Shown here: positions 1,469 through 63,085 of the stretch, piece after piece | Numbering within the stretch: the first letter of the stretch is position 1 | How the letters are laid out: every line of letters begins with the position of its first letter | Assembly: GCF_965363235.1 (NCBI RefSeq) | Contig: NC_134844.1 | Coordinates: forward strand, 49,844,872 to 49,908,871 | Length of the DNA: 64,000 nucleotides | Direction: 5' to 3' | DNA from: Mytilus galloprovincialis | Lineage: Eukaryota; Mollusca; Bivalvia; Mytilida; Mytilidae | Translations under genes and position numbers: made by a program | The notes under the pieces: model-generated | Database searches by the model: none | What the model was told of the DNA's origin: nothing | What the model saw: the letters and a program-made list of their open reading frames with translations, nothing else

Positions 1469-2997
1469 TATGTGAAATTGTTTAAGTGTATATTATTAAA
1501 AATCATGTGGGAAGTCTATTTTCAGGGACGGAATGGTCTAGATTTTTTATGAACATGCATTTAAATGCACAGTTTTAATGTTTTAGCTAATTTCAGTCAT
1601 AGTATATTTCTTTTTAAAATTCAAATGAAAATTATTCTATTTAGTTAAAATGTTAAATATTGATTTATATGCCGAATGCCAAGTAAGTGTTGGGAAGTGC
1701 ACACTTAATGCAAAATTTACAGCATAAGAGCACCAAAGACACAAAGTGTGTGGTTCTATTGATAAAGTAATGGTGTCAAAACACTCCTGGGGTGTTCCCA
1801 GTGAAATTTTGATATTTATGTTTCATTTCAAGGGGTTCTAAGGAGGATATTTAGTTGTTTTAGTGATTTCTCAAATCAATTTTTTATGAGAATTGTTAGC
1901 AAAAAATGAAAATAAAAACCATCGGTTTGACTTTGATATATGCGATATATTTACTACATAACCATTTCCTGTTTTTGGATAATTTGTTTCTAAATGAATT
2001 CATAGGTCTCCATAGCATAAAGGTGCAATGAGGTATGACACCAAACAGTTAAATCAATATCTTATTACTGGAGGTCTATATCAAAATTCTAAGACTCGGT
2101 TTTGTAGCTTGTGTATGGTTGATTAAATGAATGGAAACAAATGTTTACTATCATGTGACCTGTTGCCATGGTTACACCAGAGAGAGATTATATTTCACCA
2201 TTATAACTATTGGAAATCAAATCTTTGGAAGATTCTCTTTCTATAAATATACACAAATATTAAGCTTTATTTGTTAGAAAGGAAGAGAAAGAGGGTGTTT
2301 AAAAACTATGAGTGTCAATTCTAAGTTTGTTTCCTAACTGTGTATTACTACCTAAGTAGTTTGATAATAGATACGAATATTGAAAGAACTATTGCTCAGT
2401 GTCTACGAGTGACGAAAGGTATAAAAGTTGCAACATGGAAAACTGCATTTTCAGTTTTTATCAAGAGTCGCAGAAGTCACATCTCATGTGCTATGTATTT
2501 ATTCGGGATGTTGATTTACTTAGCAAACATCGTTAGGAGTCGTAAATTGTCATAAATTATTCGTAATTATTCATAATGACACGTAAATAGATTGTAGCTA
2601 ACATATTAAGCCATGTATGAACAGTAACATTTCCGTGTTATTCACTTCAAAATTCGTTAGTAGCCCGTAAAATGCACGTAAGTTACTCGTAGATAACTTA
2701 GATAACTATTAAGAAATCGGACAATATTTCAGTATAATTCAAAAATATAATAAACCTTTGTCTTTTTCATTTTTAGCCATGGCGTTGTCAGTTTATTTTA
2801 TATCTATGAGTTTGACTGTCCCTTTGGTATCTTTCGTCCCTCTTTTATTGAAACGTGAAAATACATGTAGGTCGTTAATGTGGTTAAATCGTAAGGATTC
2901 GTGAATTGGTATGATTCTTAAGTTGAATCCGTGTTTATAAAAGGGCTATTGAAGAAGGGACATTATAAAAAAAACCTCAAAGATTGTTTCAACAAAC

Positions 2998-3953
2998 CTT
3001 CCTCAGTTTTTATCATTTCATACTGATGATCAGGGTAGCCCTCAGCGACAATATCAACTTTGGCCTGTGTGTGTTTGTTTTTCTGTCTCACTAAGGCAAT
3101 ATCACTTTGGCTGGTCTGAACAACAATTTTCCAAAATGTACTTATATTTTCGAGACTTTTCATCATATCATTGGTTTGGAAAGAGATGATGACATCTGAA
3201 AGTTCATTGTTATTTTGTATTGACTGTATGAGGCTTTCTGATTCCATCAGTGCATGTTCAATCTGCTTGCTGATAAGATACGTTTGCAGGTCGGATGCAT
3301 GCTGCTTTGTTATTGCAAGGCTTTTTTGAAGTTCATCTATCTCTCTTTCCGCTCTACAGATGCCAAAATTTTGCTGATTTTCTTTCTTTCATTATTTTCG
3401 ATTATATGGAGTTCTTTCAATAATGTTCTTTCAAGACGATCGAAGTGGTTATTTACTGTACGCCTAGCTTTCTGAATTTCTTTTTTAATCGTCTGTCTGT
3501 GTAGTGTTAAAGACGATAGATTTCCTGCGCGATTCTTTTGAATTCTTTGTAAATCAGCAGTAACTTCCCGGATTGAATTTTCGATTTCTAACATCATGTT
3601 GAACGATTTTATCCTGCAGACAACATCGCTTATATCTGTGAGATCTTTGCAGTTCTTATGGTCCCCTATAAGACACTTTGTACAACAAGAACATTTGTGT
3701 TAATGACACTAAGCTTGATATCGTTCACCATGTGATTTGCAGGATTCTTCAATTTGAAGGACACTTACAGGTAACTTTTGAAATTCGTTTACAGGTATAA
3801 CACCATGACTTTTTGATGCTTTATTCAGGATATGATGTTCTTTACATTCATCACAGAGTCCTTCATTACATTCAAAACACCATGCAGTAGATGGTACACA
3901 CTTTTGTCTGGAATCGCAGATGCCACAAAGTGGAAAATTGCATGCCATATTCC
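2998..3953 (-). pseudogene. B-box/coiled-coil exon of gene copy 1, broken
   Basis: This is homologous along its whole length to the copy 2 exon. It keeps the splice acceptor (TTTTACAG before GAATATGGC), the start at 3948 (MACNFPLCGIC), B-box 1, the coiled-coil segment and the donor (GAAG|GTTTGT, last exon base 2998). It cannot make the protein: two stops (TAG, TAA) fall inside B-box 2 directly after RYQA, near 3705-3715, and a 4-bp deletion relative to copy 2 shifts the frame near 3330-3345. It has no YxxL array; the linker has ALVRQKNK and YEMI as in copy 2. It is a recent pseudogene, since the rest of the exon is still highly similar to copy 2. Confidence 0.8.
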
Positions 3954-13026: not shown

Positions 13027-13512
13027 TTAACCTTTGATTTCATCCTTTTCATAATGTTTTCTGCAATGCAAGACATTTGCAGTGGCGGATCCAGAAATTT
13101 TCATAAGTGGGGGCCCACTGACTGACCTAAGAGGGGGCCCGCTCCAGTCACGCTTCAGTGATTCCCTATATAAGCAACCAATTTTTTTCCCAAAAAGGGG
13201 GGGCCCGGGCCCCCTGGGCCCCCCCCCTAAATCCGCCTCTGATTTGATATGGTTCATCCTTTGAACTACACAACAACACGACAGTACCTTCACCTAAAAT
13301 ATTCCTTCTCCCTACAGTGATTTCAAATTCTTTTTCGATTCCTCTTTTTCCAAATTTTCGTACTATATTGAATGACCAACAGCATTTTGGTATCTTTTTC
13401 TGAATGTCTTCTAATATAAAACCACTTGTCGTAATGCACAGTCTGTATTGCCCCTTTAATCCAAATTTCAAGGCATCATTCGCTGGTTTCACAGTGACAA
13501 TGAAACAAGAAT
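13027..13512 (-). CDS. PTB exon of gene copy 2, split by a MITE
   Basis: The last exon of copy 2 starts at 13512 after a TTTCATTTCAG acceptor, in phase 1. It codes an IRS/DOK-type PTB domain: CFIVTVKPANDALKFG, YRLCITTSGFILEDI, then SFNIVRKFG and ITVGRRNILGEGT. The phosphotyrosine-pocket arginines of this family appear present (R of VRKFG, R of VGR). After CSSKDEPYQ the frame runs into the MITE at 13080-13241 and stops within it at 13166, giving a foreign tail. To the left of the MITE the original C-terminus continues and ends near 13027, matching the KKMQSEVKH end of copy 6. Read as is, copy 2 would be about 433 aa with most of the PTB core but not its native C-terminal helix. Confidence 0.7.
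13080..13241. mobile_element. 162-bp MITE inserted in the PTB coding exon
   Basis: The ends CAGTGGCGGATCCAG and CTAAATCCGCCTCTG are inverted repeats with a few mismatches. ATTTG flanks both sides (13075-13079 and 13242-13246), a 5-bp target duplication. The centre is a long G/C run with GGGGGGGCCC and CCCCCCCCC, able to form a hairpin. It has no coding capacity. The superfamily is uncertain. Confidence 0.75.
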
Positions 13513-13586: not shown

Positions 13587-15329
13587 TTATTATTATGAAA
13601 CCGAGTGATTTTATGTTGAATATTTTGTATAATATGAAAATCATCTATTTAAGGTAGCACTACAGTCTAACTATGATTTTTGAAAGATATTTGTTATCAT
13701 TTTATTTTGAAGTAAGTATCATTCTGCACCGTTTGTAAAAATCCAAAAGTCACATCACAACAACGTGTAAATTGATATTGAAGTTATGTAAATAAAAGCA
13801 CATGGTAATTAATCTAAATATATAGGTATTTGAGAGGAGCCAATATGCCAATCATCTGCTGATAACAGTGTCTAGCTATTAACCACGGACCACAAGAAAG
13901 ATTTGTTGTCTATCTCATTGTATTGAAAAAAAGGTGATTTATAAAACATGGAAATTAAACAGAGAAGAAGAAAAAGATATGAAAAAAAAATAATAACTAA
14001 AAGTAATAAAATCTAACAAAATGAAAACAAGAGTGCACACGCTGAAATGTCTCGCATTCTTTACTAAGCAAAGATATATTTTGATAGTCTGAAATATAAA
14101 GTTTTACTACACCTATCACATAAACTTAACATGATCCAAGAAAATGAGGTCAAAGTCATATAAACCAAGCAAGAAATACATATACACCTAACAATTATTC
14201 AATACACTAAATTTTATTGACCTCTTGCTTATAGTTTATAAGAAACAGACTTAACCAAGAAAACTTAACATTGACCAATGAACCATGCTACGCAAACATG
14301 TACAGCTTACAATTTTTCCATACAACAAACGGAGTTGACCTATAGCTTATAGTTTAAGAAACCAAAACAGACCAAAACACAAAAACTTAACACTGAGCAA
14401 TGAACCGTGAAATGAGGTCAATGTCGAATAAAACCTGCGAGACTGACATGTACATCATAAAATATGTCCATACACCAAATACAGTTGACCTGTTGCATAT
14501 AGTATTAGAAAGAAGACCAAAACTCAAAAACTTAACTTTGACCACTGAACCATGGAATTGAGGTCAAGGTCAGATGACACCTTCCAGTTGGACATGTACA
14601 CCTTACAATCATTCCATATACCAAATATAGTAAACCTATTGCATACAGTATAAGAAAAAAAGACCAATAAACATAAACTAAACTATAACCACTGAACTAT
14701 GAAAATAAGGTCAAGGTTAGATGATCCCTGCCAGTTGGACCTCACAATCCTTCCATTCACCAAATGTACTAGACATATTGCTTATAGTATCTGAGATATG
14801 GATTTAACAACCAAATCTTAACCTGATCCATGAAATGATGTCGAGGCCAAGTGAAAAATGGCTGACAGGCTGGGGGACTTCAAGTAAAATCAATATATCT
14901 TCTTACTGAAGGCATATTTCAAAAATCGGAGACACGGTTTTGTAGCTTGTGTATGGTTTATTAAAGGAATGAAAACAAATGTTTTCTACCATTTGACCTG
15001 AATTTGCCATTTTCACTCACTAGATTTTTAAGGAAGAGTTATATTTCAGCTTTACAATGAGTTATTTATTGGGATGTACTTAAATCGTTGTATTTTATTC
15101 TGTATTAGTATATGGCGGTCAACATGGTCAAGTTTAGTTTCCTTTGTTTTGGACTTAGTAAACTCCTGCTGGACGATAGCCATGACAGTCGTTTCACAAC
15201 ATAACGTTAGATTCTTGGTCGTGGTAGATCTATTAAATAGTTGTCGTGTCGTGCAAAATGTCAAAAAAATATTTCGAGTGGTCACATCAGCTACGACACG
15301 TCAAAAACTCAAATATTGTTTCAACAAAC
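13587..15329 (-). other. Intron of gene copy 2
   Basis: The intron runs 13513-15329 (1817 bp) between PTB acceptor and B-box donor. Most of it aligns with window bases 1-2997. It contains the dispersed repeat with tandem units at 14028-14880. Open frames on both strands at 15052-15426 are intronic or overlap the exon antisense and are not genes. Confidence 0.6.
14028..14880 (+). repeat. Dispersed repeat with about 5 tandem units of roughly 145 bp
   Basis: Units recur with the phrases CTTAAC..TGACCA..TGAACCATG, ATGAGGTCAAGGTCA, TTGGACATGTACA and CCAAATATAGTTGACCT. The ATGAGGTCAA-type word falls near 14143, 14413, 14556, 14707 and 14838. The left end matches 665. The pattern matches a bivalve dispersed repeat I know by sight; no decisive classification is possible here. 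Confidence 0.6.
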
Positions 15330-16284
15330 CTTCTTCAGTTTTTATGGTTTCGTACTGATGATCAGGATACTCCTTGGTGAAAATATCAACTTTGGTCAGT
15401 GTCTGTTTGTTTTTCTGTCTCACTAATGAAATATCACTTTGACTGGTCTGAACAACAATTTTCCAAAATTTACTAATATTTTCGAGACTTTTCATCATAT
15501 CATTGGTTTGAAAAGAGATGATGACATCTGAAAGGTCATTGTTGTTTTGTATGGACTGTATGAAGCTTTCTGATTCCATCAGCTCATGTTCAATCTGCTT
15601 ACTGATAAGATACGTTTGCAGGTCGGATGCATGCTGCTTTGTTACTGCAAGGCTTTTTTGAAGTTCAGCTATCTCCTTTTCTTTCAGTTCTACAGAAGCC
15701 AAAATTTTGTTGATTTTCTTTCTTTCATCATTTTCAATTATATGGAGTTCTTCTAATAATGTTCTTTCAAGACAATCGAAGTGGTTATTTACTGTATGCC
15801 TAGCTATCTGAATTTCCGTTTCAATCGTCTGTCTGTGTAGTTTTAAAGAGGATAGATTTCCTGCGCGATTCTTTTGGATTCTTTGTAAATTATCAGTAAC
15901 TTCCCGCATTGAATTTTCTATTTCCAACATCATGTTGGACGACTTTATTCTGCAGACAGCATCGTTTATATCTGTAAAATCTTTGCAGTTCTTATGGCCA
16001 CCTAAGAGACACTTGGTACAACAAGAACACTTGTGTTGATGACAATAAGCTTGGTATCGATCGCCATGTGATTTGCAGGATTCTGCAAGTTGAAGGACAC
16101 TTACAGGTAACTTTTGAAATTCGTTTACAGGTATAATTCCATGACTTTTCGATGCTTTGTTCAGGGTGTGGTGTTCTTTACATTCCTCACAAAGTCCCTC
16201 GTTACATTCAAAACACCATGCTGTTGAAGGTTTAGAAATATGTCTGGAATCGCAGATGCCACATGCAGGGAATACACCTTCCAT
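15330..16284 (-). CDS. B-box 1 + B-box 2 + coiled-coil exon of gene copy 2
   Basis: TRIM-like protein without RING, 318 codons plus one base in this exon. The start at 16284 (MEGVFPACGIC) was chosen because the splice acceptor (TGTTTTACAG) lies 4 bases upstream, as in the other copies, so any earlier in-frame ATG is intronic. B-box 1 ligands are C8, C11, C24, C27, C32, C35, H39, H48; B-box 2 ligands C70, H73, C81, H84, C89, C92, H97, C100. About 120-240 is coiled coil rich in E, K, L. The linker (about 241-318) has QTSQSDISLVRQKNKQ and QYETIK, with no YxxL array. The donor is GAAG|GTTTGT at 15330, phase 1, leading to the PTB exon at 13512. B-box/coiled-coil proteins usually oligomerise and act as scaffolds; without RING, ubiquitin ligase activity is not expected. 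The partner exon is cut by a MITE, so whether the gene is functional is open. Confidence 0.8.
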
Positions 16285-26726: not shown

Positions 26727-27046
26727 TCAAGGTTTGCCTGCTGACTGTTGTATAAAGATGGGTACTAAGCGAAAAAGTCTTTCTAAATTATCTCTTGAAT
26801 CACATAGGAATGTGACATTACCCGGACCTAGAATATGCCTTCTACCTACAGTAATTACAAATTCTCGCCCTTCTTTTGACTTTCCATATTGTTGCACGAT
26901 ATCATATGGCCAATGACATTTTAATGTCCTTTTCTTTATGTCTTCTAATGTGAAGCCTTCAGGTTTAACATACAGTCGGTAATCACTAATTAATCCAAAT
27001 TTCCATGCTGCCTTCCCTGGTTTGGCCATGACAATGAAACAAAGAT
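26727..27046 (-). CDS. PTB (IRS/DOK type) last exon of gene copy 3
   Basis: Begins at 27046 after TTTCGTTTCAG, phase 1, and ends at a stop at 26727; 105 codons after the junction codon. The domain runs LCFIVMAKPGKAAWKFG, YRLYVKPEGFTLEDIKK, CHWPYDIVQQYG, FVITVGRRHILGPG, VTFLCDSRDNLERLFRL. The order and the GRRxxxGPG turn are those of IRS/DOK PTB domains, which bind phosphotyrosine in NPxY contexts. Aligned by eye, the first pocket arginine (IRS1 R212 equivalent) is Q in VQQYG, while the second (VGR) is kept, so phosphate binding may be altered. A GATAAA word lies downstream where copy 4 has AATAAA. Confidence 0.8.
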
Positions 27047-27669
27047 CTGAAACGAAAGAAAAAACAAATTCTGAGTGTAAAATGTTCTTATTGGACTCTG
27101 CATGTAACGAACTAACTTGACATTATATATACAATTCAAATATATATCCTCTCTCTTTGTATTTAATCTCCACACTTCTTATGAAGGAACTTACAAGTAG
27201 CCTTTATATTATTGTTTTATCTGTACTGTCTTTCTATTGAATTAAATTATGTCGATTGTTAAAATGAAATATGTCACATATTGAGAGGTTCAAATCAATT
27301 AATGTTTTAAAAATTTCTGTTGCTGAGTCTGGTTTCTATGTTGCGTTATTTTCACTGTGTATTGTCTTTCTATTTTGTCATGATATTGTTAACTTTGTTT
27401 TCGTTTTGATTTTCCCACCTCACTTCTACTCATCTATTTATTTTCGTGTTTTACAAAAATTGTTGAAGCAATCGATGATCGTAATACTTTACTTATACCA
27501 AACAAATATTCTTATTCTTAAAAATTCCTTTTCAAATTAAGGCTTTAACAGGTAACAACCTGTTTCATGCTCTGTGGTCAGTCTGGTATCATATGAATGT
27601 TTCTCTGTTTGCATGTGGAAACATTAGACTGTGCTTATTTATTTTTCTATCGTGCAAAAGACATGTTAC
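27047..27669 (-). other. Intron of gene copy 3 (623 bp)
   Basis: Bounded by donor CCAG|GTAACA (last exon base 27670) and acceptor TTTCAG (first exon base 27046). If the donor is not used, translation stops eight codons on, at 27647, giving a protein without PTB. An antisense 89-codon frame at 27271 has no support. Confidence 0.6.
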
Positions 27670-28993
27670 CTGGATCAGTCTGTCCAACAGTTTCACCAAG
27701 TTCCGTATATGATTCTTCTCCATTCTCCTGTTCCATTGATGACGTATAAACTGGACTGGTCATTTCAACAATTTCACCAAGTTCCGTAGATGAAGCATCC
27801 GTATATGTTTCTTCTCTATTCTCCTGTTCAATTGATGACGTATAAACTGGACTGGTCAGTTCAACAATTTCACCAATTTCCGCATAAGTTTCTTCTCTAT
27901 TCTCCTGTCCCATTGATGACGTATAAACTGCACTGGTCAGTTCAACAATTTCACCAAGTTCCGAAGATGCTTCTTCTGTATTCTCCTGTCCCATTGATGA
28001 CGTATGAATTGCACTGGTCAGTTCAACAATTTCACCAAGTTCCGTAGATGCTTCTTCTGTATTTTTCGGTCCAATTGAAGATGCAGAAACTGGACGGGTC
28101 AGTTCCACAATTTCACTTAGTTCTGTATATGCTTCTACATTATGCTCCTGTGGTATCAAAGACGTATAAGCTTGTGTAATCTGCTCATCGTTTTCTCCAA
28201 GTTTCGAGTATTGTGCCTCTTTATTCTTCTGTTTCATTAAATAAATATAGTTTGAGCTTGTGTGTTCATCGTTTTCTCCAAGTTTGGAGTATTGAGCCTC
28301 TTTATTCTCCTGTGGTATTAAAGACGTATAATCTTGTATAATATGCTGATCGTTTTCCCCAAGTTTCGAGTATGGCGCCTCTTTATTCTCCCGTAGTATT
28401 GAAGACGTATAAGCTTGTGCAATCTGTTCATCGTTTGCACCAAGTTTCGAGTATTGCGCCTTTTTATTCTTCTGTTTCATTGAAGACATATAGTCTGAAC
28501 TTGTCTGTACAACGGTTTTACCGAGTTTCTCATATTTTGCCTCATTATTCTCCCGTTGAATTAAGGCCGTATAAATTTGTCTGGTCTGTACATCGATTTC
28601 CTCCGTATTAATTATATTTTGCTTTACAATGTCTACAAAATCGTCCATTTGTTGAGAGATATTTACATTTGAAAGCTTATTATTATCGTGTATATTTGTG
28701 AAATTTTTGCATTTCTTATGTTCCTCAATGAGACTTTTTGTACAACAAGAACATTCGTGTTCATGACAGTATGCTTGATTATTTTCACCATGTAATTTGC
28801 AGGATTCTTCAATTTGAAGGACACTTACAGGTAATATATGTATAATGCCATGACTTCTCGATGCTTTGTTTAGTAAATGTTGAACCTTACATTCTTCACA
28901 GAGCCCTTCTTTACAATTGATACACCATGTAGTAGATGGTACAGAAATATTTCTGGAATCGCAGCTACCGCAAATAGGAAATTTACTTGCCAT
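27670..28993 (-). CDS. B-box + tyrosine-motif array exon of gene copy 3
   Basis: 441 codons plus one base from the start at 28993 (MASKFPICGSC); the acceptor TTTCTGCAG lies 4 bases upstream. B-box 1 (C8 to H48) is complete. B-box 2 is C65, H68, C76, H79, C84, S87, H92, C95, where S87 replaces a zinc-ligand cysteine. The coiled coil of the other copies is missing: the protein passes from NIHD straight to NNKLSNVNIS, an in-frame deletion of about 140 residues. Residues 140-441 are a tandem array: YxxL/I at Y141, 154, 181, 208, 222, 235, 249, 262, 276, 289, 370, 429, with further YTSS sites; unit 27 residues (81 bp) with alternating 13/14 spacing. Two sub-types occur: YSKLGENDEQ/YTSLIPQEN early, YTELGEIVEL/SPVYTSSMEQ late. 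Joined with 26727-27046 the protein is about 547 aa. No signal peptide or membrane segment, so cytosolic. Confidence 0.8.
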
Positions 28994-42134: not shown

Positions 42135-42460
42135 TTAATATTTGTTTGCTGACTGTATCCTTTTTATAAAGATGGGTACCAAACGAAAAAGTCTATCTAA
42201 ATTATCTCTTGAATCACACCGAAATGTGATATTGCCCGGACCTAAAATATGCTTCCTACCTACAGCGATTACAATTTCTCGCCCTTCCTTTGACCTTCCA
42301 TATTGTTGCACTATCTCATATGGCCAATGACATTTTAATGTCCTTTTCTTTATGTCTTCTAATGTAAAACCGTCAGGTTTAACATAAAGTCGGTATTTAT
42401 TATTTAATCCAAATTTCAGTGCATCTTTCCCTGGTTTGACCCTGACAATGAAACAAAGTT
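42135..42460 (-). CDS. PTB (IRS/DOK type) last exon of gene copy 4
   Basis: Starts at 42460 after TTTCATTTCAG in phase 1 (junction codon E), 107 codons to the stop at 42135. Same fold signature as copy 3: LCFIVRVKPGKDALKFG, YRLYVKPDGFTLEDIKK, HWPYEIVQQYGRSKEG, IAVGRKHILGPG, ITFRCDSRDNLDRLF. The first pocket arginine position is Q (VQQYG), the second R is kept. This domain should read phosphotyrosine or plain NPxY peptides; the same protein carries NPVY at residues 282-285, a possible ligand in cis or in trans. Confidence 0.8.
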
Positions 42461-43756
42461 CTGAAATGAAACACAAAACAAATATGAAGTGTATTATTCT
42501 GTGGGTAAAAACTACTTATTCGACAGTACTTGTACCTACATTACTCTCATCTACATTAGACTTTACATTTCAAATACATATCCACTTTCTTTGTACTTTA
42601 TATTTTACATTTCTTATGCAAAAACTTAAAATGCAGCCTATTGTAATATTGTTTTATCTGTATTGTCTTGCTGTTGCATTGCATAATGTCAATATTTAAA
42701 TATGTCCAGAGGTTACTCTCATTTAATCGATTTACAGAATAAAGATAACATTTTATCTAGTGTCAAATTATAATATACTATATATGATTATTTTTACAAC
42801 ATATTGAGAAAAATAATAGCTTGTATCTTTGAAGAATTGTTTTCCAAATAAACGAACACAATAGTTGAAAATTAAAAACAATAACAATGGTTTGTTGATT
42901 GCTTATTTGATTTGCTAAGCGTCCAGTGGAAAATATTTTGTGAAAATGGAGAACAAGTCAAAGCTAAAAACAGTAAGTAGGGTAACAAGGTATGCATTGA
43001 CCTCTTGAAAAGGAGCGGGAAATTCAAACAGTCACAGAAAAAAAAACGTTGGATAAGGACAGTAGTGTTGGCTTAAAATGGACCGTTCAAAAAATATTCT
43101 GCAAGGGTTAAAAACATGCAAAGATGTTGACAATCTCTGTACAAGAGGTTTCGGATTAAATGTCAAAGTTTTGACGGAAGTTGGCTACATTTTTGTACAT
43201 TCCGCACAATGGAACAGACGCTCTTTTTTCTGCAAGGGTTATAACTGCTGCCTATAGCTAGACAAAACATAAGCAATGCATGGTTTCCTTTGATTTAATT
43301 CAAGCTTCAGTTCTGGTCATAATTTCCTTTATTAATATGCGTATACAATGTTTTAAATTGTCTAATATGTATATGTAAATCTATATTGTTAAACGTTGAC
43401 ATAAGGGTTTGGAATGAAAGAGGGACGACAGATACCAGAGGGACAGTCAAACTCATAAATGAAGTGAGAACATTATATATGTTATACGAAGAAAGATGTT
43501 TGAAGATTGATGTTGCTAAGTTTGCTTTTCTATGTTGTGTTTTTGTCTATTGTTGTTTCCTTTTAGTGTTTTTGTAGTTTATCATCTTTTGCCATGGCTT
43601 TGTCAGTTTTGATTTCGTTTAAGAGTTTGATTTTTACGTTTCGCTTCTACTAGTCTATTAATGAGAATGTGTTACAAAATCTTTTAAATCAACAGACGAT
43701 CGTATCAATTAATTTGTACCATAACCAGTATTCTTAATCATTTGTTTTTTACAAAC
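42461..43756 (-). other. Intron of gene copy 4 (1296 bp)
   Basis: Donor ACAG|GTTTGT (last exon base 43757), acceptor TTTCAG. It contains reversed and forward 3'-end fragments of the reverse-transcriptase element at 43395-43470 and 43560-43660. The plus-strand frames at 42436 and 43386 are spurious. Confidence 0.65.
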
Positions 43757-45206
43757 CTGTGTCATGTTGCGTGGTTTGTACGGTTTCATATTCATTTTCC
43801 TGTGTAGGTTGGCATGTGGACACATTAGACTGATCCTGTTTATGTTTTTGTCTCACTAACGACATGTTACCTGAATCAGTCTTTTCAACAATTTCACCAG
43901 GTTCCGTATATGCTTCTTCTTTATTCTCCTGTTCCGTTGGAAACGCAGGCACGAGACTTGTCGTTTCAACAATTTCACCAAGTTCCGTATATTCTACTTC
44001 TTTATTCTCTTGTCCAGTTGGAGACGCATGAACTGGAATGGTCTTTTCGATAATTTCACTAAGTTCTGTATATGCTTCTTCCTTGTTTTCCTGTGGTATT
44101 AAAGACGTATAAGCTTGTGTAATCTGTTCATCGTTTTCAGCAAGTTTCGAGTATTCAGCCTCTTTATTCTTCTGTTTAATTAAAGACGTATAGTCTGAAC
44201 TTGTCAGTTTATCGTTTTCACCAAGTTTCGAGTAGTCAGCCTCTTTATTCTTCTGTTTCGTTAAAGACGTATATTCTGAACTTGTCTGTTCATCGATTCT
44301 ATGGAGATCTGCATATTCTACCTCTTTATACTCCCTTTTAGTTAAGGCCGTATAAACTGGATTTGGCTGTATAACGATTTCCCCAATTTTAGTTATATTT
44401 GTCTTTACAATTTTTCCTATATCGTTCATTCGTAAAGAGATATTGACATCTAAAAGCTCATTATTATCGTGCATGGACTGAACGATGTTGTTTGTATCCA
44501 TCAATTTATGTTGAATATGTTTACTAATATGGAATGTTTGTTGGTCGGATGCATGCTGCTTTGAAATTGCCAGAGTCATTTGAAGTTCAACTACTATCTT
44601 TTCTGTACGCTCTACAGATGCCAAGATGTTGTTTATTTTTCGTCTTTCGGTATCTTCAACTTTAATAAGTTCTTTCAATAGTTCTCCTTCAATACGATCA
44701 AAATGTTCATTAATTACATGTCTAGCTTTCCGAATTTCTTCATTAATATACTTTCTATCTAATTGTAGAGATGACATATTTTCTTCTCGATTCTTTTGAA
44801 TCCTTTTCAAATTTTCGGAAAGTTCTTGCAATGAACTTTCAATTTCAAAAAAAGTTTTTGATGAACTGAATTTGCAAACACCATCATGTATATTTGTGAG
44901 ATTTTGGCAGTTCCTATGTTCCTCAATGAGACATTTTGTACAACACGAACACTCATGTTTATGACAGTATGCCTGGTAGTTTTCGCCGTGTAATTTGCAA
45001 GAATCAGTAATTTGTAGGACACTAACAGGTAACGTTTGATATTCGGTCAAAGGTAAAATACCATGACTCTTGTGTGCTTCGTTGAGAAGATGATGTTCCT
45101 TACATTCTCCACAAAGCCCTGTGTTACATTCAAAACACCATGCTGCAGATTGTACAGATGCATGTCGGGAAATGCAGACGCCGCATACAGGAAAATTGCT
45201 CGCCAT
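43757..45206 (-). CDS. B-box/coiled-coil/tyrosine-motif array exon of gene copy 4
   Basis: The most complete member: 483 codons plus one base, start at 45206 (MASNFPVCGVC), acceptor TTTTCTTCAG 4 bases upstream. B-box 1: C8, C11, C24, C27, C32, C35, H39, H48. B-box 2: C70, H73, C81, H84, C89, C92, H97, C100. Coiled coil about 120-240. Array from 285: YxxL at Y285, 298, 312, 325, 339, 352, 366, 379, 406, spacing 13,14,13,14,13,14,13,27; then YTEP at 433 and YETV at 473. Acidic residues often precede the tyrosines (EVEY, EAEY, EEAY), as Src/Syk-type substrates prefer. NPVY at 282-285 is a PTB-type ligand. There is no RING, signal peptide or membrane segment. With the PTB exon the protein is 591 aa. 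I infer a cytosolic phosphotyrosine scaffold; I do not recognise a named family with this order. Confidence 0.85.
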
Positions 45207-45210
45207 ATTT

Positions 45211-46549
45211 CTGAAGAAAAAAACATTCACTTCCGAATACATTTTATTGGTATTAGCATTGTAGTCCAATCCTTGTTTTACATACCCGTTATTTTCACAA
45301 ATACAAACTATTGATAAGGGAAAATATTAAACGCTTATGCTGATCACGACTGATTATTATTAGAAAAAAGCTTGAACATCATATAACAATGATGGAAATG
45401 ATTTGAATATTAGATATTTGAAAAACATATTTCTTTTGTATCCTGCAATACACACTAGAACAGACAATGTCTTAAAATGATCAATATACAGATCAGCATT
45501 GTTTTCCTTTCTACAGCACATTTGTAAACTACAAAACTCAGGGCTTTCAGACGTCATTTTAGGCGAATCGAAAATAAAACAGAGGCCGGTTCCATTGTTT
45601 GAAATGTAATATTCATATCAATTCTTTGAAAATTAGTTTATGGTCAGGGGTGTGTGTATTCGTCTATATTATGCCACTAAATGCTTAAACATCATAACGG
45701 GGAAGATGGTGTGGGACGATTTGTTTTTGAAAGTAGAAAAAGGGACCGTGTTTGTACTTACATGAACAATACAAAGGGAGCCGACATGTAGAGCAGGAAC
45801 TGCGTTCCTTTCCAAAGTGCCTGAAATCACACCTATTATGTGATGAAGTTCGATTTGCTTTATTCTTAAGTGTGTGTTTATACACTATTGATTGTTTTGA
45901 AAAAAAAAGAATTCAATGACATTGTCACTTTGTAGTCAACGTATGAGTTTGAACATCCCTTTGTTATCTTTCACGTTTCTTTTTCGTGGCATTTAGTTTA
46001 GACATACCTAAAAATTACTTCTAATATGTTTTAACAGCAACAGTTCTAATGATTACAACTATGACAATGAAAATTTTCTGTTGCTGTTCCGTTACTGCAT
46101 TAAGTTAATAATCGATAAAGTTAAACGCTTTGATTTTTCGTCATGTTTGATAAAAATCTATAGCTCGTTATTCTCATAGAATACTGTGGATTCATAAATA
46201 TTTGTTTGATACCAATTTTCGTGGATTTCGTTGATATAGGAGAAAAAAGAATCTAAATGATCAACGAATTACAAAAGGAATATATGTAAACTTTGCCAAA
46301 TCAACATTAGATATCAAAGTTTTTCTCAATCTACGAAAATTGGCACCCACGAAAATAAATGACTCCACAGTAATATGAATGCCGGAAAAATCTTTAAAAA
46401 AAATTGGAATGCTACTATAGAATAACAAAAGTTCTGCTTCTATATCATGCTTCATCCTGATTTGAAATAAACATCTATACGGTAGTGGATTATTGGAAAA
46501 TGGTGAAACCTAAGTTGCTGGAAAACAAAGACGTACACGAACCTTAACA
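45211..46549. other. Upstream flank of gene copy 4, no exon recognised
   Basis: The splice acceptor just upstream of the B-box ATG implies a 5' exon further right. None can be placed with confidence here. Short frames at 45360, 45685 and 46261 show no homology. Confidence 0.35.
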
Positions 46550-50234: not shown

Positions 50235-50605
50235 AGATATAGGAATATGTGGTGTGAGTGCCAATGAGACAACTCTCCATCCAAAAAACAATTGAAAAAA
50301 GTAAACCATTAGAGGTCAATGTACGACCTTCAACTCGGAACCTTGGCTGACACCAAACAACAAGCTTTAAAGGGTCCCAAAATTACTAGTGTAAACCCAT
50401 TCAAACGGGTAAACCAACGGTCTAATCTATATAAAAAAATGAGAAACGAGAAACACGTATAAATTACATAAACAAACGACAACTACTGTACATCAGATTC
50501 AGGACAGGTGCAAACATTTGCAGCGGGATTAAACGTTTTAATGGTACCAAACATTCTACCATTTTCTGAAATAATAGCATAACATCACAACATAGAAAAA
50601 CTCTA
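50235..50605 (+). repeat. Dispersed repeat, uninterrupted copy
   Basis: Runs from ATGTGGTGTGAGTGCCAATG through CGACCTTCAACTCGGAACC to GCAGCGGGATTAAACGTTTT and ATAGCATAACATCACAAC. It abuts the truncated PTB relic at 50628 and may have removed its end. Other copies are at 17690-18605 (interrupted), 35290-35465 and 46555-46620. Confidence 0.6.
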
Positions 50606-50627
50606 TTACTAATTACTATTACTAATC

Positions 50628-50792
50628 TTCCATATTGACGTACTATGTTATGTGGCCAATAATATTTTAACGTGTTTGTCTCGGTGTCTTCTAATTTAAA
50701 ACCTTGTTTTGTAACATACAGTCTGTATTGTCCTTTTAATCCAAATCTCAGAGCATTTTTCCCTGGTTTTACGACGACATTAAAACACAGAT
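50628..50792 (-). pseudogene. Relic PTB exon (gene copy 5)
   Basis: The minus strand reads, after a TTTGAG boundary at 50793, LCFNVVVKPGKNALRFG, YRLYVTKQGFKLEDTE, YYWPHNIVRQYGR, then homology stops where a dispersed repeat begins. The acceptor has GAG in place of CAG and the second half of the domain is gone. No B-box exon is visible to its right. It is a dead copy, with features between the copy 2/6 and copy 3/4 types. Confidence 0.75.
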
Positions 50793-53243: not shown

Positions 53244-56200
53244 CAGTTGGGTGCAGACCAAGCATTACATAAAGTAAACGCAAGTTAACGCCGCGTGCAC
53301 ATATTTCGTTAGTTAACTTCAAATCTCCCGTTTACTAGTAAACGCACGTTTACTATAATTACGTTAACGTGGTCGAAATGGAAATTTCTAATGTCTACCC
53401 TAGTAAACGGGCGTTTACTATGTGTCCGTTTAGTCAGTAGTAAACGGGCGTTTACTTCAGAATTCTTCAAATTTATTTTTACGTGCACTTAAAAGTAAAC
53501 GGGCGTTTAGTACAGATTTTACAAGTGTATTTTTACGTGCACTTGAAAATTAAGTAAACGCACGTTTACTTTTCGCGTTAACAGATTGGGTAAATTTAAA
53601 ACTTCAAGTTCATTTGCACATTTATTTTATAAAAGCGACCTTTAGTCTTTATATATTTCACGTATATGTGTTTCAAACCAGAACATTTCAAAAACTCTTT
53701 TAATTCGAAATATTAAATTACACAAAATCACTTTCATAAAGTCCATTAACTTTACTGATTGGCAGATTTTCTATATTTTACTTTCAAAAGTTACATGTGC
53801 AAATATCGATACGGAAAGAAAGGTTATCCGAGACATCTGGAGAATATTTTTATATGATGGGATATAAACATCGTGGTTTACGTTGTTTCGTTCCCCGTTT
53901 ATAATTGTCTCTTCGAATTCCTAACTATAACTCGGTGTATTTAATACATTAATTTTTAATCGAAATTCACCTTGTTTGCCTTGGATTAACATGATAAGAT
54001 TCTGTTTTGACAAATGATAAAAAAAACCGTAAATTGAACAGTATATTGAAAGGGATATCAATAAAGTGTATTATAAGTATGTTCATTTGTACCATCTCGT
54101 CAATTAAAATGTTCAAATATTGCTATCTTTACATGGATATATAACTCATTTACTATGCGGCTATATAAATTTACATAATAGAATGCTTATATGGTCAGTT
54201 TTGGTTGTTGTGGACAAATAATTTTATTATATGAGTCAGTCTGAGGTATGAAAACTACTGAATTTTGTTTACGATTCAATATTTTGAATAAAAAAAGTAC
54301 ATGCTGGCACTCTAAATTGATGCGAACAAAATTTTTTAGTCATAATATTCAAATATTGCTACCTATTTTCTTATACAATCAATCCTTACATGAAAATATA
54401 ACTCATTTACTATGCGGCTATATAGATTTACATAATAAAATGCTTATATGGTCAGTTTTGGTTGTTGCGGACAAATAATTTTATTAAATGAGTCAGTCTG
54501 AGGTATGAAAACTACTGAATTTTGTTTACGATTCAATATTTTAAATAAAAAAAGGACATGCTGGCACTCTAAATTGATGGGAACAAAATTTTTTTAATCA
54601 TAATATTCAAATATTACTTCCTTTTTTATTATACAATCAATCCTTACTTGAAAATATAACTCATTTACTATGCAGCTATATAGATTTACATACTAGAATG
54701 CTTATATGGTCAGTTTTGGTTGTTGCGGACAAATATTTTTATTATATGAGTCAGTCTGAGGTATGAAAACTACTGAATTTTGTTTACGATTCAATATTTT
54801 GAATAAAAAAGGACATGCTGGCACTCTAAATTGATGCGAATAAAATTTTGTAATCATAATGTTCAAATATTGCTACCTATTTTCTTATACAATCAATCCT
54901 TACATGAAAATATAGCTCATTTACTCTGTGGCTATATAGATTTACATAAGCAAATGCTTATATGGTCAGTTTTGGTTGTTGCGGACAAATAATTTTATTA
55001 TATGAGTCAGTCTGAGGTATGAAAACTACTGAATTTTGTTTACGCTAAAATATTTTGAATAAAAAAGGACATGCTGGCACTCTAAATTGATGCGAACAAA
55101 TTTTTTTAGTCATATTATTCAAATATTGCTACCTATTTTTTTATACAATCAATCCTTACATGAAAATATAGCTCATTTACTCTGTGCCTATATAGATTTA
55201 CATAAGCAAATGCTTATATGGTCAGTTTTGGTTGTTGCGGACAAATAATTTTATTATATGAGTCAGTCTGAGGTATGAAAACTACTGAATTTTGTTTACG
55301 ATTCAAAATTTTGAATAAAAAAGGACATGCTGGCACTCTAAATTGATGCGAATAAAATTTTGTAATCATAATGTTCAAATATTGCTACCTATTTTTTTAT
55401 ACAATCAATCCTTACATGAAAATATAGCTCATTTACTCTGTGGCTATATAGATTTACATAAGCAAATGCTTATATGGTCAGTTTTGGTTGTTGCGGGCAA
55501 ATAATTTTATTATATGAGTCAGTCTGAGGTATGAAAACTACTGAATTTTGTTTACGCTTAAATATTTTGAATAAAAAAGGACATGCTGGCACTCTAAATT
55601 GATGCGAACAAATTTTTTTAGTCATATTATTCAAATATTGCTACCTATTTTCTTATACAATAAATCCTTACATGAAAATATAACTCATTTACTATGCGGC
55701 TATATAGATTTACATAATAAAATGCTTATATGGTAAGTTTTGGTTGTTGCGGACAAATAATTTTATTATATGAGTCAGTCTGAGGACATGCTGGCACTCT
55801 AAATTGATGCGAACAAATTTTTTTTAATCATAATATTCAAATATTACTACCTTTTTTATTATACAATCAATCCTTACTTGAAAATATAACTCATTTACTA
55901 TGCGGCTATATAGATTTACATACTAGAATGCTTATATGGTCAGTTTTGGTTGTTGCGGACAAATATTTTTATTATATGAGTCAGTCTGAGGTATGAAAAC
56001 TACTGAATTTTGTTTATGCTTCAATATTTTGAATAAAAAAGGACATGCTGGCACTCTAAATTGATGCGAACAAAATTTTGTAATCATAATATTCAAATAT
56101 TGCTACCTATTTTCTTATACAATCAATCCTTACATGAAAATTTAGCTCATTTACTATGCGGCTATATAGATTTACATCAGCAAATGCTTATATGGTCGGT

Positions 56201-58838
56201 TTTGGTTGTTGCGGACAAATAATTTTATTATATGAGTCAGTCTGAGGTATGAAAACTACTGAATTTTGTTTACGATTCAATATTTTGAATTAAAAAAGAC
56301 ATGCTGGCACTCTAAATTGATGCGAACAAAATTTTTTAGTCATAATACTCAAATATTGCTACTTATTTTCTTATACAATAAATCCTTACATGAAAATATA
56401 ACTCATTTACTATGCGGCTATATAGATTTACATAATTAAATGCTTATATGGTCAGTTTTGGTTGTTGTGGACAAGTAATTTTATTATATGAGTCAGTCTG
56501 AGGTATGAAAACTACTGAATTTTGTTTACGATTCAATATTTTAAATAAAAAAAGGACATGCTGGCACTCTAAATTGATGGGAACAAAATTTGTTTAATCA
56601 TAATATTCAAATATTACTTCCTTTTTTATTATACAATCAATCCTTACTTGAAAATATAACTCATTTACTATGCAGCTATATAGATTTACATACTAGAATG
56701 CTTATATGGTCAGTTTTGGTTGTTGCGGACAAATATTTTTATTATATGAGTTAGTCTGAGGTATGAAAACTACTGAATTTTGTTTTAGATTCAATATTTT
56801 GAATAAAAAAGGACATGCTGGCACTCTAAATTGATGCGAATAAAATTTTGTAATCATAATGTTCAAATATTGCTACCTATTTTTTTATACAATCAATCCT
56901 TACATGAAAATATAGCTCATTTACTCTGTGGCTATATAGATTTACATAAGCAAATGCTTATATGGTCAGTTTTGGTTGTTGCGGACAAATAATTTTATTA
57001 TATGAGTCAGTCTGAGGTATGAAAACTACTGAATTTTGTTTACGCTTCAATATTTTGAATAAAAAAGGACATGCTGGCACTCTAAATTGATGCGAACAAA
57101 TTTTTTTAGTCATAATATTCAAATATTGCTACCTATTTTCTTATACAATAAATCCTTACATGAAAATATAACTCATTTACTATGCGGCTATATAGATTTA
57201 CATAATAAAATGCTTATATGGTCAGTTTTGGTTGTTGCGGACAAATAATTTTATTATATGAGTCAGTCTGAGGTATGAAAACTACTGAATTTTGTTTAGG
57301 ATTCAATATTTTGAATAAAAAAAGTACACGCTGGCACTCTAAATTGATGCGAACAAAATTTTTTAGTCATAATATTCAAATATTGCTACCTATTTTCTTA
57401 TACAATCAATCCTTACATGAAAATATAACTCATTTACTATGCGGCTATATAGATTTACATAATAAAATGCTTATATGGTCAGTTTTGGTTGTTGCGGACA
57501 AATAATTTTATTATATGAGTCAGTCTGAGGTATGAAAACTACTGAATTTTGTTTACGATTCAATATTTTAAATAAAAAAAGGACATGCTGGCACTCTAAA
57601 TTGATGCGAACAATTTTTTTTTAATCATAATATTCAAATATTACTACCTTTTTTATTATACTATCAATCCTTACTTGAAAATATAGCTCATTTACTATGC
57701 GGCTATATAGATTTACATAAGCAAATGCCTTTATGGTCAGTTTTGGTTGTTGCGGACAAATAATTTTATTATATGAGTCAGTCTGAGGTATGAAAACTAC
57801 TGAATTTTGTTTACGATTCAATATTTTGAATAAAAAAGGACATGCTGGCACTCTAAATTGATGCGAACAAAATTTTGTAATCATAGTATTCAAATATTGC
57901 TACCTATTTTCTTATACAATCAATCCTTACATGAAAATATAGCTCATTTACTATGCGGCTATATAGATTTACATAAGCAAATGCTTATATGGTCAGTTTT
58001 GGTTGTTGCGGACAAATAATTTTATTATATGAGTCAGTCTGAGGTATGAAAACTACTGAATTTTGTTTACGATTCAATATTTTAAATAAAAAGAGGTCAT
58101 CGCCGTCAGGCTGGTACAAAAATTGCTGTCAATTGTTTTATATGGTCAATTATGGCATAAAAATATAACTGAATTACTTCTATATAGAATAAGATAACTT
58201 GTTAAGAGGTAAATATTGTCAGTTGTGGTGAATGATATCAAAAAGTTTTGTTTTACGAGTCAGTCTGTCTAAGATGAGAAAACTGTTTGATTTTGGTGAG
58301 GATTAAATTACATGTATTTGAATAAACATACTTAAACTATTATTTGCGAAGAACAAGAAATTTACTATAATTATTGTTCAATTAAATACAAATGTGTGAC
58401 ATTTTTAAATTACTGTAATCGTCAATATGTCAAGCAGAAATGACCAGTTGGTCAATTAATTGTGATGTTCCTTATCATTTCATATTTTAGGTCAGTGTAT
58501 CCAAGTTACGATGACAATCTGCGTTAACGGGCGTTTACTACAAACAATAAACGCGCGTTTACTTATTACAAAAATAGAAGACCCGCCTTTTTCCACGTTA
58601 ACGCGGAGGTAAACGGAAAAGTAAACGCCCGATTACTCTTTACAAAATTAGAAGACTCGCCGTTTTTGCGTTAACGCGGAGGTAAACGCGAAAGTAAACG
58701 CCCGTTTACTTTTAATGTCTACTGCAATTTCGGAGTTAACGCACAGTTAACGCGGCGTTTACATGAAGTGCACGCGAGTAAACGCCGCGTTAACTTTTTC
58801 GGCCCGTCTACATGTAATGCTTGGTCTGCACCCAACTG
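53244..58838. mobile_element. 5.6-kb TIR element carrying an internal satellite array
   Basis: Left end CAGTTGGGTGCAGACCAAGC then ATTACAT; the right end is the exact reverse complement over 27 bp. TA lies on both sides (53242-53243, 58839-58840), a TA target duplication as in Tc1/mariner-type transposition. Inside each end (about 53270-53600 and 58510-58800) lie many near-palindromes of the type GTAAACG(N)2CGTTTAC. The centre, 54106-58098, is a 257-bp tandem array. There is no transposase, so it is non-autonomous. Confidence 0.75.
54106..58098 (+). repeat. Satellite array, about 15 units of 256-258 bp
   Basis: The phrase GGTATGAAAACTACTGAATT recurs with ATG at 54248, 54505, 54763, 55019, 55275, 55531, 55993, 56249, 56505, 56763, 57019, 57275, 57532, 57790 and 58046. 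One unit (55740-55800) lost about 50 bp between GAGTCAGTCTGAGG and ACATGCTGGCACTC. Units differ by a few per cent and show sub-groups (ATTGCTACC/ATTACTACC types) that alternate in blocks, as from unequal exchange of multi-unit segments. A 76-codon frame survives in only two units. Confidence 0.85.
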
Positions 58839-62759: not shown

Positions 62760-63085
62760 TTAATGTTTGACCTCTGATTGCATCTTTTTTATAATTATTC
62801 GTGCAACACTCGAAATTTTACCTGGATCATCTCTTGAACTACACAAAAACAAGACAGTTCCTTCACCTAAAACATTTCGTCTCCCTACGGTGATTGCAAA
62901 TTCTCTTTCGTTTCCTGTTTTTCCAAATTTTCGTACAATGTTAAATGACCAACAGCATGTTGGTGTCATTTTTTCAATGTTTTCTAATATAAAACCACTC
63001 TGTGTAACACGTAGTCTGTACTGTCCATTTAGTCCAAACTTCAAGGCATCTTCTACTGGTTTGGCAGTGACAATGTAGCAAGGAT
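62760..63085 (-). CDS. PTB (IRS/DOK type) last exon of gene copy 6 (partial gene)
   Basis: Starts at 63085 after TTCAATTTAG, phase 1 (junction codon D), 107 codons to the stop at 62760. Domain: CYIVTAKPVEDALKFG, YRLRVTQSGFILENIEK, CCWSFNIVRKFGKTG, ITVGRRNVLGEGT, FLCSSRDDPGKISS. It is closest to copy 2 and, unlike it, undamaged; both pocket arginines (VRKFG, VGR) appear present. The B-box exon must lie to the right of the window, at least 0.9 kb away. Whether that exon has a YxxL array cannot be known here. Confidence 0.8.

Follow-up and report, generated by a model that had tools for sequence, protein, structure and literature searches.

A chain of YxxL motifs in a mussel B-box/PTB gene: a possible soluble tyrosine-docking scaffold that is ITAM-like but not an ITAM

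Most of what is known of ITAM-like signalling concerns membrane receptors, and DOK adaptors are laid out with an N-terminal PH domain and a tyrosine-rich tail that follows the PTB domain. The ITAM consensus is given as YxxL/I-x6-8-YxxL/I in one source (PMC12058738), and a second source places ten to twelve residues between the tyrosines (PMC5089863). The latter also describes kinase preferences from vertebrate T cells: Lck disfavours an Asp at -1, and ZAP-70 avoids nearby Lys/Arg. In the PTB domain of Dok1, the phosphate is met by Arg54, Arg69, and Arg70 (PMC4479986). Among the matches listed for the open-licence literature, judged by titles and the openings of abstracts, neither a mollusc B-box/PTB protein nor a soluble chain of YxxL motifs was found.

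A chain of this kind is encoded in the window, the stretch of 64,000 nucleotides of Mytilus galloprovincialis DNA analysed here. It is part of copy F of a tandem gene cluster, whose features are the following:

43757 to 45206, minus strand: coding part of exon 1 of copy F, which is copy 4 of the first-pass annotation (from Pfam and the open reading frame)
43899 to 44384, minus strand: array of F, six 27-residue units (residues 275-436) with nine YxxL
43818 to 43898, minus strand: seventh F unit (F7), without tyrosine (GEIVEKTDSGNMSLVRQKHKQDQSNVS), which matches the single linker unit of other copies
43788 to 43790, minus strand: Tyr473 of YETV in F
42461 to 43756, minus strand: putative intron between the array exon and the PTB exon of F (donor GTTTGT, acceptor TTTCAG)
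42135 to 42460, minus strand: exon 2 of F, with an IRS/DOK-type PTB domain and the stop codon (Pfam IRS, 27.7 bits)

The frame of exon 1 extends over 43749-45326 on the minus strand, with the ATG at 45206-45204, and encodes in order two B-boxes, a coiled coil, a linker, the tyrosine array, the Tyr-free unit, and YETV. A likely splice acceptor (TTTCTTCAG, 45207-45230) lies directly before the start codon and therefore suggests an untranslated first exon upstream. Upstream of the start codon, copies A, B, and D translate much as F does. The nine YxxL that had been placed at residues 285, 298, 312, 325, 339, 352, 366, 379, and 406 are found exactly there, with Tyr codons that run from 44352-44354 down to 43989-43991. 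Their measured spacing (13, 14, 13, 14, 13, 14, 13, 27) agrees with the proposed alternation of 13 and 14 within a 27-residue, 81-bp unit, and the 81-bp period was also returned independently by Tandem Repeats Finder (43879-44094 and 44126-44354). Outside the earlier count are YKEV293, YTEP433 (with its Leu lost), and YETV473, as well as YQTL at residue 56, which is unrelated to the array. Acidic residues precede many of the tyrosines, as had been noted, with an acid at -1 in six of nine and at -3 in five of nine. The description of the protein as soluble is also borne out, as neither exon encodes a membrane-spanning stretch (best 19-residue hydropathy mean 0.94). The array peptides EAEYSKLAENDEQ and EEAYTELSEIIEK are candidate phosphopeptides.

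Chance from composition alone is ruled out as the source of the nine motifs. They were reached in 0 of 20,000 shuffles of the 189-residue F segment (shuffle mean 0.70), and when the columns were permuted identically across all six F units, which keeps the repeat, at least nine YxxL occurred in 49 of 50,000 permutations. The nine are not independent events; they are the two motifs of the unit, copied by duplication.

The cluster around F was surveyed by tblastn over 163 kb around the window, and the whole-genome searches cover 1.38 Gb. B-box/coiled-coil exons are present in A, B, C (broken), D, E, F, and a split H/I, and PTB exons in A, B, D, E, F, G, and H, with fragments beside C. Further cluster features in the window are:

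27650 to 28993, minus strand: copy E, with B-boxes, a mostly missing coiled coil, eleven array units, and twelve YxxL/I
26727 to 27046, minus strand: PTB exon of copy E, 82% identical to that of F
15304 to 16284, minus strand: copy D, with B-boxes, coiled coil, one Tyr-free linker unit, and QYETI; its frame overruns the donor
13166 to 13512, minus strand: PTB exon of copy D, ending in unrelated sequence
2963 to 3948, minus strand: copy C, broken by in-frame stops and a frameshift, with one Tyr-free linker unit and QYEMI
50521 to 50787, minus strand: PTB exon G, which matches well for its first ~50 residues and then fades
62763 to 63080, minus strand: PTB exon H, whose partner B-box/coiled-coil parts lie outside the window

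The frame of copy E ends at a TAG ahead of the expected splice donor, so E may not reach its PTB. No B-box exon for PTB exon G was found between copies F and H. The tail of the D PTB exon (13166-13245, RGGFRGGAQGARAPPF) is unlike the other PTB exons; by blastn against the 163-kb cluster it matches itself and the PTB fragment of C, the latter over the last PTB-like bases only, and its foreign part has no second copy there. The H/I split (G000:C7:49914286-49930016, L036-L038) lies outside the window with its parts about 14.8 kb apart; in query residues, the B-box part extends to 122 and the coiled-coil part starts from 121, as if an insertion or an intron lay inside the exon. The window also holds a large satellite-like array of 256-bp tandem repeats (54125-58100), the copies of which match at 93-94%.

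In the whole genome, exon 1 gave at least 85 matches, and three of these B-box/coiled-coil relatives from elsewhere in the genome were translated (L006, L007, and L008). By their translations they look like proteins that continue past the linker into a beta-propeller, L007 in a shorter frame. Of twelve scored candidates for the PTB exon, nine matched: seven lie in this cluster, and the two on C4 also match the Pfam IRS family; a genome-wide Pfam IRS scan at E 0.001 returned only E and B among the cluster exons. For the array, 52 candidates were scored and four matched at E up to 1, every one of them within E and F. In prokaryote and viral contigs, 34 and 3 pattern stretches, respectively, were found and none was confirmed as a relative; as these collections are prokaryotic and viral, nothing is implied about orthologues in other molluscs.

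The array unit is kin to a linker without tyrosine. This linker unit is present once in cluster copies, for example as GELVVQTSPCDMLLVRQKSKQAQANVA in A and GEIVVQTSQRNMSLVRQKIKEAQTRVA in B, and a Tyr at unit position 11 or 24 is found in none of the seven single-unit segments (A, B, C, D, H, F7, E12). The linker unit of L006-L008 (like FGEINVNSDPCDFSVQKRKDRQAQIMV), aligned by eye, likewise lacks Tyr at both positions. In the unit tree, F1 pairs with E1 and F4 with E6, and F5 and F6 are grouped with E7-E11. The simplest account of these alignments would place both the gain of two tyrosines and the multiplication of the array units ahead of the split between E and F. Of the tyrosine motifs that follow the coiled coil, only the last (QYET[V/I] or close; Y473 in F) is common, being present in six of seven copies. 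The array tyrosines are thus no conserved feature of the family: the single-unit segments lack them, and the first motif decays within the arrays. The first-pass annotation had named tyrosines that are not conserved among orthologues as evidence against its proposal; this was worded for orthologues of other species, and the Tyr-free sister copies appear to lean that way.

Within the arrays, constraint was counted over the 17 units of E and F, with F7 and E12 left out and five E10 codons dropped for register. Y24, L27, E21, and N19 are each kept in 15 units, Y11 in 13, and L14 in 8. The second YxxL of each unit is probably kept; the first is decaying, most strongly in E. When changes are mapped by parsimony to the unit tree, there are 44.5 synonymous and 121.5 nonsynonymous changes at a synonymous site share of 0.21, counts that are rough because the tree rests on 81 bases per unit. 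Overall, substitution in the units is close to neutral. This ratio favours a near-neutral tandem duplication, in which two tyrosines arose in the linker and were copied and nothing reads them. The presence of the array in only two cluster copies, the loss of Y11 in 4 of 17 units and of L14 in 9 of 17, and the state of copy E, without most of the coiled coil and with a frame that ends before the donor, point the same way. Set against this, the frame has been kept open: the 17 units are free of stop codons, although the inferred changes should have produced about 9.4 (P ~1e-4, with transitions weighted twofold and changes treated as independent); stops do occur just past the E array, in unit E12, which is outside the 17. 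The ExxYxxL columns (E21, Y24, L27) are among the six slowest of 27, and 20 of 2,925 column triples are as slow, the triple being chosen post hoc. The share of column pairs that are as slow is 4.3% for Y24 with L27 and 26% for Y11 with Y24, and the corresponding figure for the four Y/L columns together is 10.7%. The F4-E6 pair differs by six synonymous and four nonsynonymous changes and has retained both YxxL. Duplication without any reader of the tyrosines is, on balance, rather unlikely.

Diversifying selection on the youngest units, E8-E11 (1 synonymous, 14 nonsynonymous changes), is not claimed (P 0.12), and the other four unit subsets and the whole tree gave P values from 0.31 to 1.0. Outside the array, Ka/Ks is 0.23-0.32 in the B-box and coiled-coil region (six pairs of A, B, D, and F), which denotes constraint, and 0.26-0.79 in the PTB exons (15 pairs).

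F has TRIM-family features, namely B-boxes and a coiled coil; no RING domain was found by Pfam in exon 1. The B-boxes that had been assigned from sequence hold in part: the D copy reaches 26.7 bits, above the Pfam zf-B_box cut-off of 24.1, and F itself stays below it with 20.7 bits (E 4.7e-4). The Cys/His of both boxes are invariant in four aligned sequences, at positions assigned by the usual B-box spacing. AlphaFold models of exon 1, built from four sequences (mean pLDDT 51), contain one confident helix at residues 117-247, with block-mean pLDDT of 64-98 over residues 111-240 in the monomer. Copy E was left out of the folding alignment because it is without most of the coiled coil. Confidence is low for the B-boxes and the array; the low B-box score is not evidence against them, because the models leave out zinc and rest on a shallow alignment. 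Over the array, helices are drawn at 283-326, 336-369, and 375-389. They would suit a structural repeat, a helical continuation of the coiled coil packed by Tyr and Leu, for which phosphorylation is irrelevant. These helices have a block-mean pLDDT of only 36-70, however, and after residue 390 no structure is predicted (about 25-31). In addition, the tyrosines lost among the 17 units became His, Ser, or Pro and never Phe. A purely structural role is accordingly graded as quite improbable.

The array exon and the PTB exon have compatible splice signals. The exon 1 donor (G/GTTTGT) and the acceptor of the PTB exon (42135-42460) are both in phase 1, which is also the phase of the seven PTB acceptors examined and of the donors in A, B, D, and H; the acceptor of PTB exon G reads GAG. 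We infer a splice that joins the two, by which the soluble F protein probably also has a phosphotyrosine-binding-type domain. The earlier assignment of a PTB domain withstands comparison with Pfam, by which the exon, itself in phase, is of the IRS/DOK type (27.7 bits against a cut-off of 22). By sequence, the exon matches Dok1 at E 4.5e-4, and the top PDB matches of its predicted fold are the Dok1 PTB (E 3.3e-7); of five AlphaFold models the best has a mean pLDDT of 75 and the other four 41-55. Dok1 RRYG (54-57, in the numbering of PMC4479986) aligns without gaps with QQYG of F. At the positions of Arg54, Arg69, and Arg70, F has Gln, Arg, and Lys, and E has Gln, Arg, and Arg. Arg54 is kept in A, B, D, G, and H, and Arg69 in A, B, D, E, F, and H, in a comparison made without L016, L017, and L024. 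The copies with the chain are thus the copies without Arg54, which counts as a single observation, because the Gln of E and F is probably common by descent. From the alignment, this Gln may mean weaker phosphotyrosine binding or another ligand.

The PTB could also bind its own chain at NPVY285 and so cluster the scaffold. F has one NPxY, which stands at the first motif, and the Dok1 PTB is described to bind phosphorylated NxxY of integrin tails (PMC4479986). This reading is downgraded because E lacks NPxY, with RQIY at the matching place, and the Gln at the Arg54 position of F also speaks against it. Self-binding is therefore very improbable.

The comparison of the chain with ITAMs stands for the chained YxxL pairs and their fusion to B-boxes and, by the predicted splice, to a PTB; it does not stand for the strict spacing. 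Pairs of the consensus x6-8 number 0 in F and 0 in E, the gaps being x9 and x10, and the relaxed x6-12 pattern has seven starts in F and seven in E. Measured against twelve residues between tyrosines, a spacing of 13 is at the edge and one of 14 beyond it. ITAMs lie in membrane-receptor tails, and neither F exon encodes a hydrophobic 19-residue stretch. A possible partner is encoded at C1:102295013, where an SH2 exon matches SYK (E 7e-18) and ZAP-70 (2.6e-12) ahead of the next kinase, CSK (9e-7). It comes from 54 SH2 matches in the genome, of which 30 loci were translated and this one was chosen by eye and searched against the PDB. A tyrosine-kinase catalytic exon lies 25 kb away on the same strand. 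Elsewhere in the genome, tandem runs of kinase-domain exons, equal or almost equal in score and mostly ~1.7-1.9 kb apart, are found at C1:45763308-45812657 and C3:92336290-92352771.

These observations bear on a working ITAM chain, a soluble counterpart of CD3 zeta in which phosphorylated YxxL pairs would recruit tandem SH2 domains of the Syk type. The YxxL pairs are in register, the Syk-like SH2 exon is present, and Syk homologues have been reported in some invertebrates (PMC5978004, PMC9486129). The surroundings of most first sites of the units are near neutral in charge, as described for Lck/ITAM sites (PMC5089863). The absence of any x6-8 pair stands against it; several E units are without the first Leu (YTSS, YMSS), which leaves single motifs 27 apart, and no second SH2 of the Syk-like gene turned up in the search. 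A true ITAM chain is thus unlikely. The vertebrate kinase preferences appear to cut both ways for the array: beside the near-neutral first sites, Asp is found at -1 in two of nine F sites, and Lys/Arg lie near several.

The preferred reading, which is given about an even chance, is that F would be a soluble, multivalent scaffold for tyrosine docking, akin to an ITAM chain without being one. If expressed and spliced as predicted, it would have about 590 residues with two B-boxes, a coiled coil, nine YxxL, and a C-terminal DOK/IRS-type PTB. The long coiled coil should oligomerise the protein and thereby multiply the chain. Src- or Syk-type tyrosine kinases would phosphorylate the chain, above all the ExxYxxL of each unit, and it would offer docking places to several SH2-domain proteins at once. 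Recruitment of the scaffold to activated receptors would fall to the PTB, or in sister copies to the single QYET[V/I] motif together with the PTB. Columns and positions beyond chance, the slow ExxYxxL, the open frame, the PTB fold, and the Syk-like SH2 argue for such a scaffold, as do the constraint on the B-box and coiled-coil region, the confident helix, the lost tyrosines that never became Phe, and the kinase exon 25 kb from the SH2 exon. The near-neutral units, the unexceptional rates of Y11 with Y24 and of the four Y/L columns, the stops in E12, the chain-free sisters, the Gln at Arg54, and the mixed kinase preferences argue against it, as does the part of the array that AlphaFold draws as helix, at the low block-mean pLDDT given above.

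A more far-reaching version is that in a single mussel lineage the linker acquired tyrosines and was duplicated in tandem, so that an ITAM-like chain came into being and gave a soluble Syk-type scaffold while the PTB drifted from phosphotyrosine binding. The drift and the birth of the chain would then amount to a shift from reading phosphotyrosine to offering a platform of it; we regard this version as doubtful. If such a tyrosine chain has arisen recently in a soluble B-box protein, it would illustrate how motifs of this kind emerge from unrelated sequence, and it would link TRIM-like proteins with phosphotyrosine signalling within a single polypeptide of an animal that lacks adaptive immunity. 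The chain-free sister copies offer a natural comparison.

Within its own genome, F resembles the relatives L006-L008 in B-boxes, coiled coil, and linker unit, of which they have one. The cluster differs from them by a PTB exon where the relatives show an apparent beta-propeller, by the multiplied linker, and by the tyrosines gained in E and F. With DOK/IRS adaptors, F shares an IRS-type PTB and possible tyrosine docking sites in one soluble protein. Its tyrosine sites precede the PTB, however, and the stop codon follows directly after it; B-boxes and a coiled coil are present instead of a PH domain, for which Pfam gave no match in either F exon. In C. elegans, TRIM-21, which acts on the engulfment receptor CED-1, likewise ties a TRIM protein to NPXY and phosphorylated YXXL signalling, as described in PMC9388098, although there the motifs are on the receptor and the adaptors CED-6 and NCK-1 are used. 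In F, YxxL and PTB are inside the B-box protein itself. CD3 zeta and other ITAM proteins likewise carry several YxxL pairs per chain, with three ITAMs in zeta (PMC12058738). F differs from them by its gaps of x9/x10 instead of x6-8, by the absence of a membrane span, by unpaired and decayed motifs, and by a unit that is related to a TRIM-like linker.
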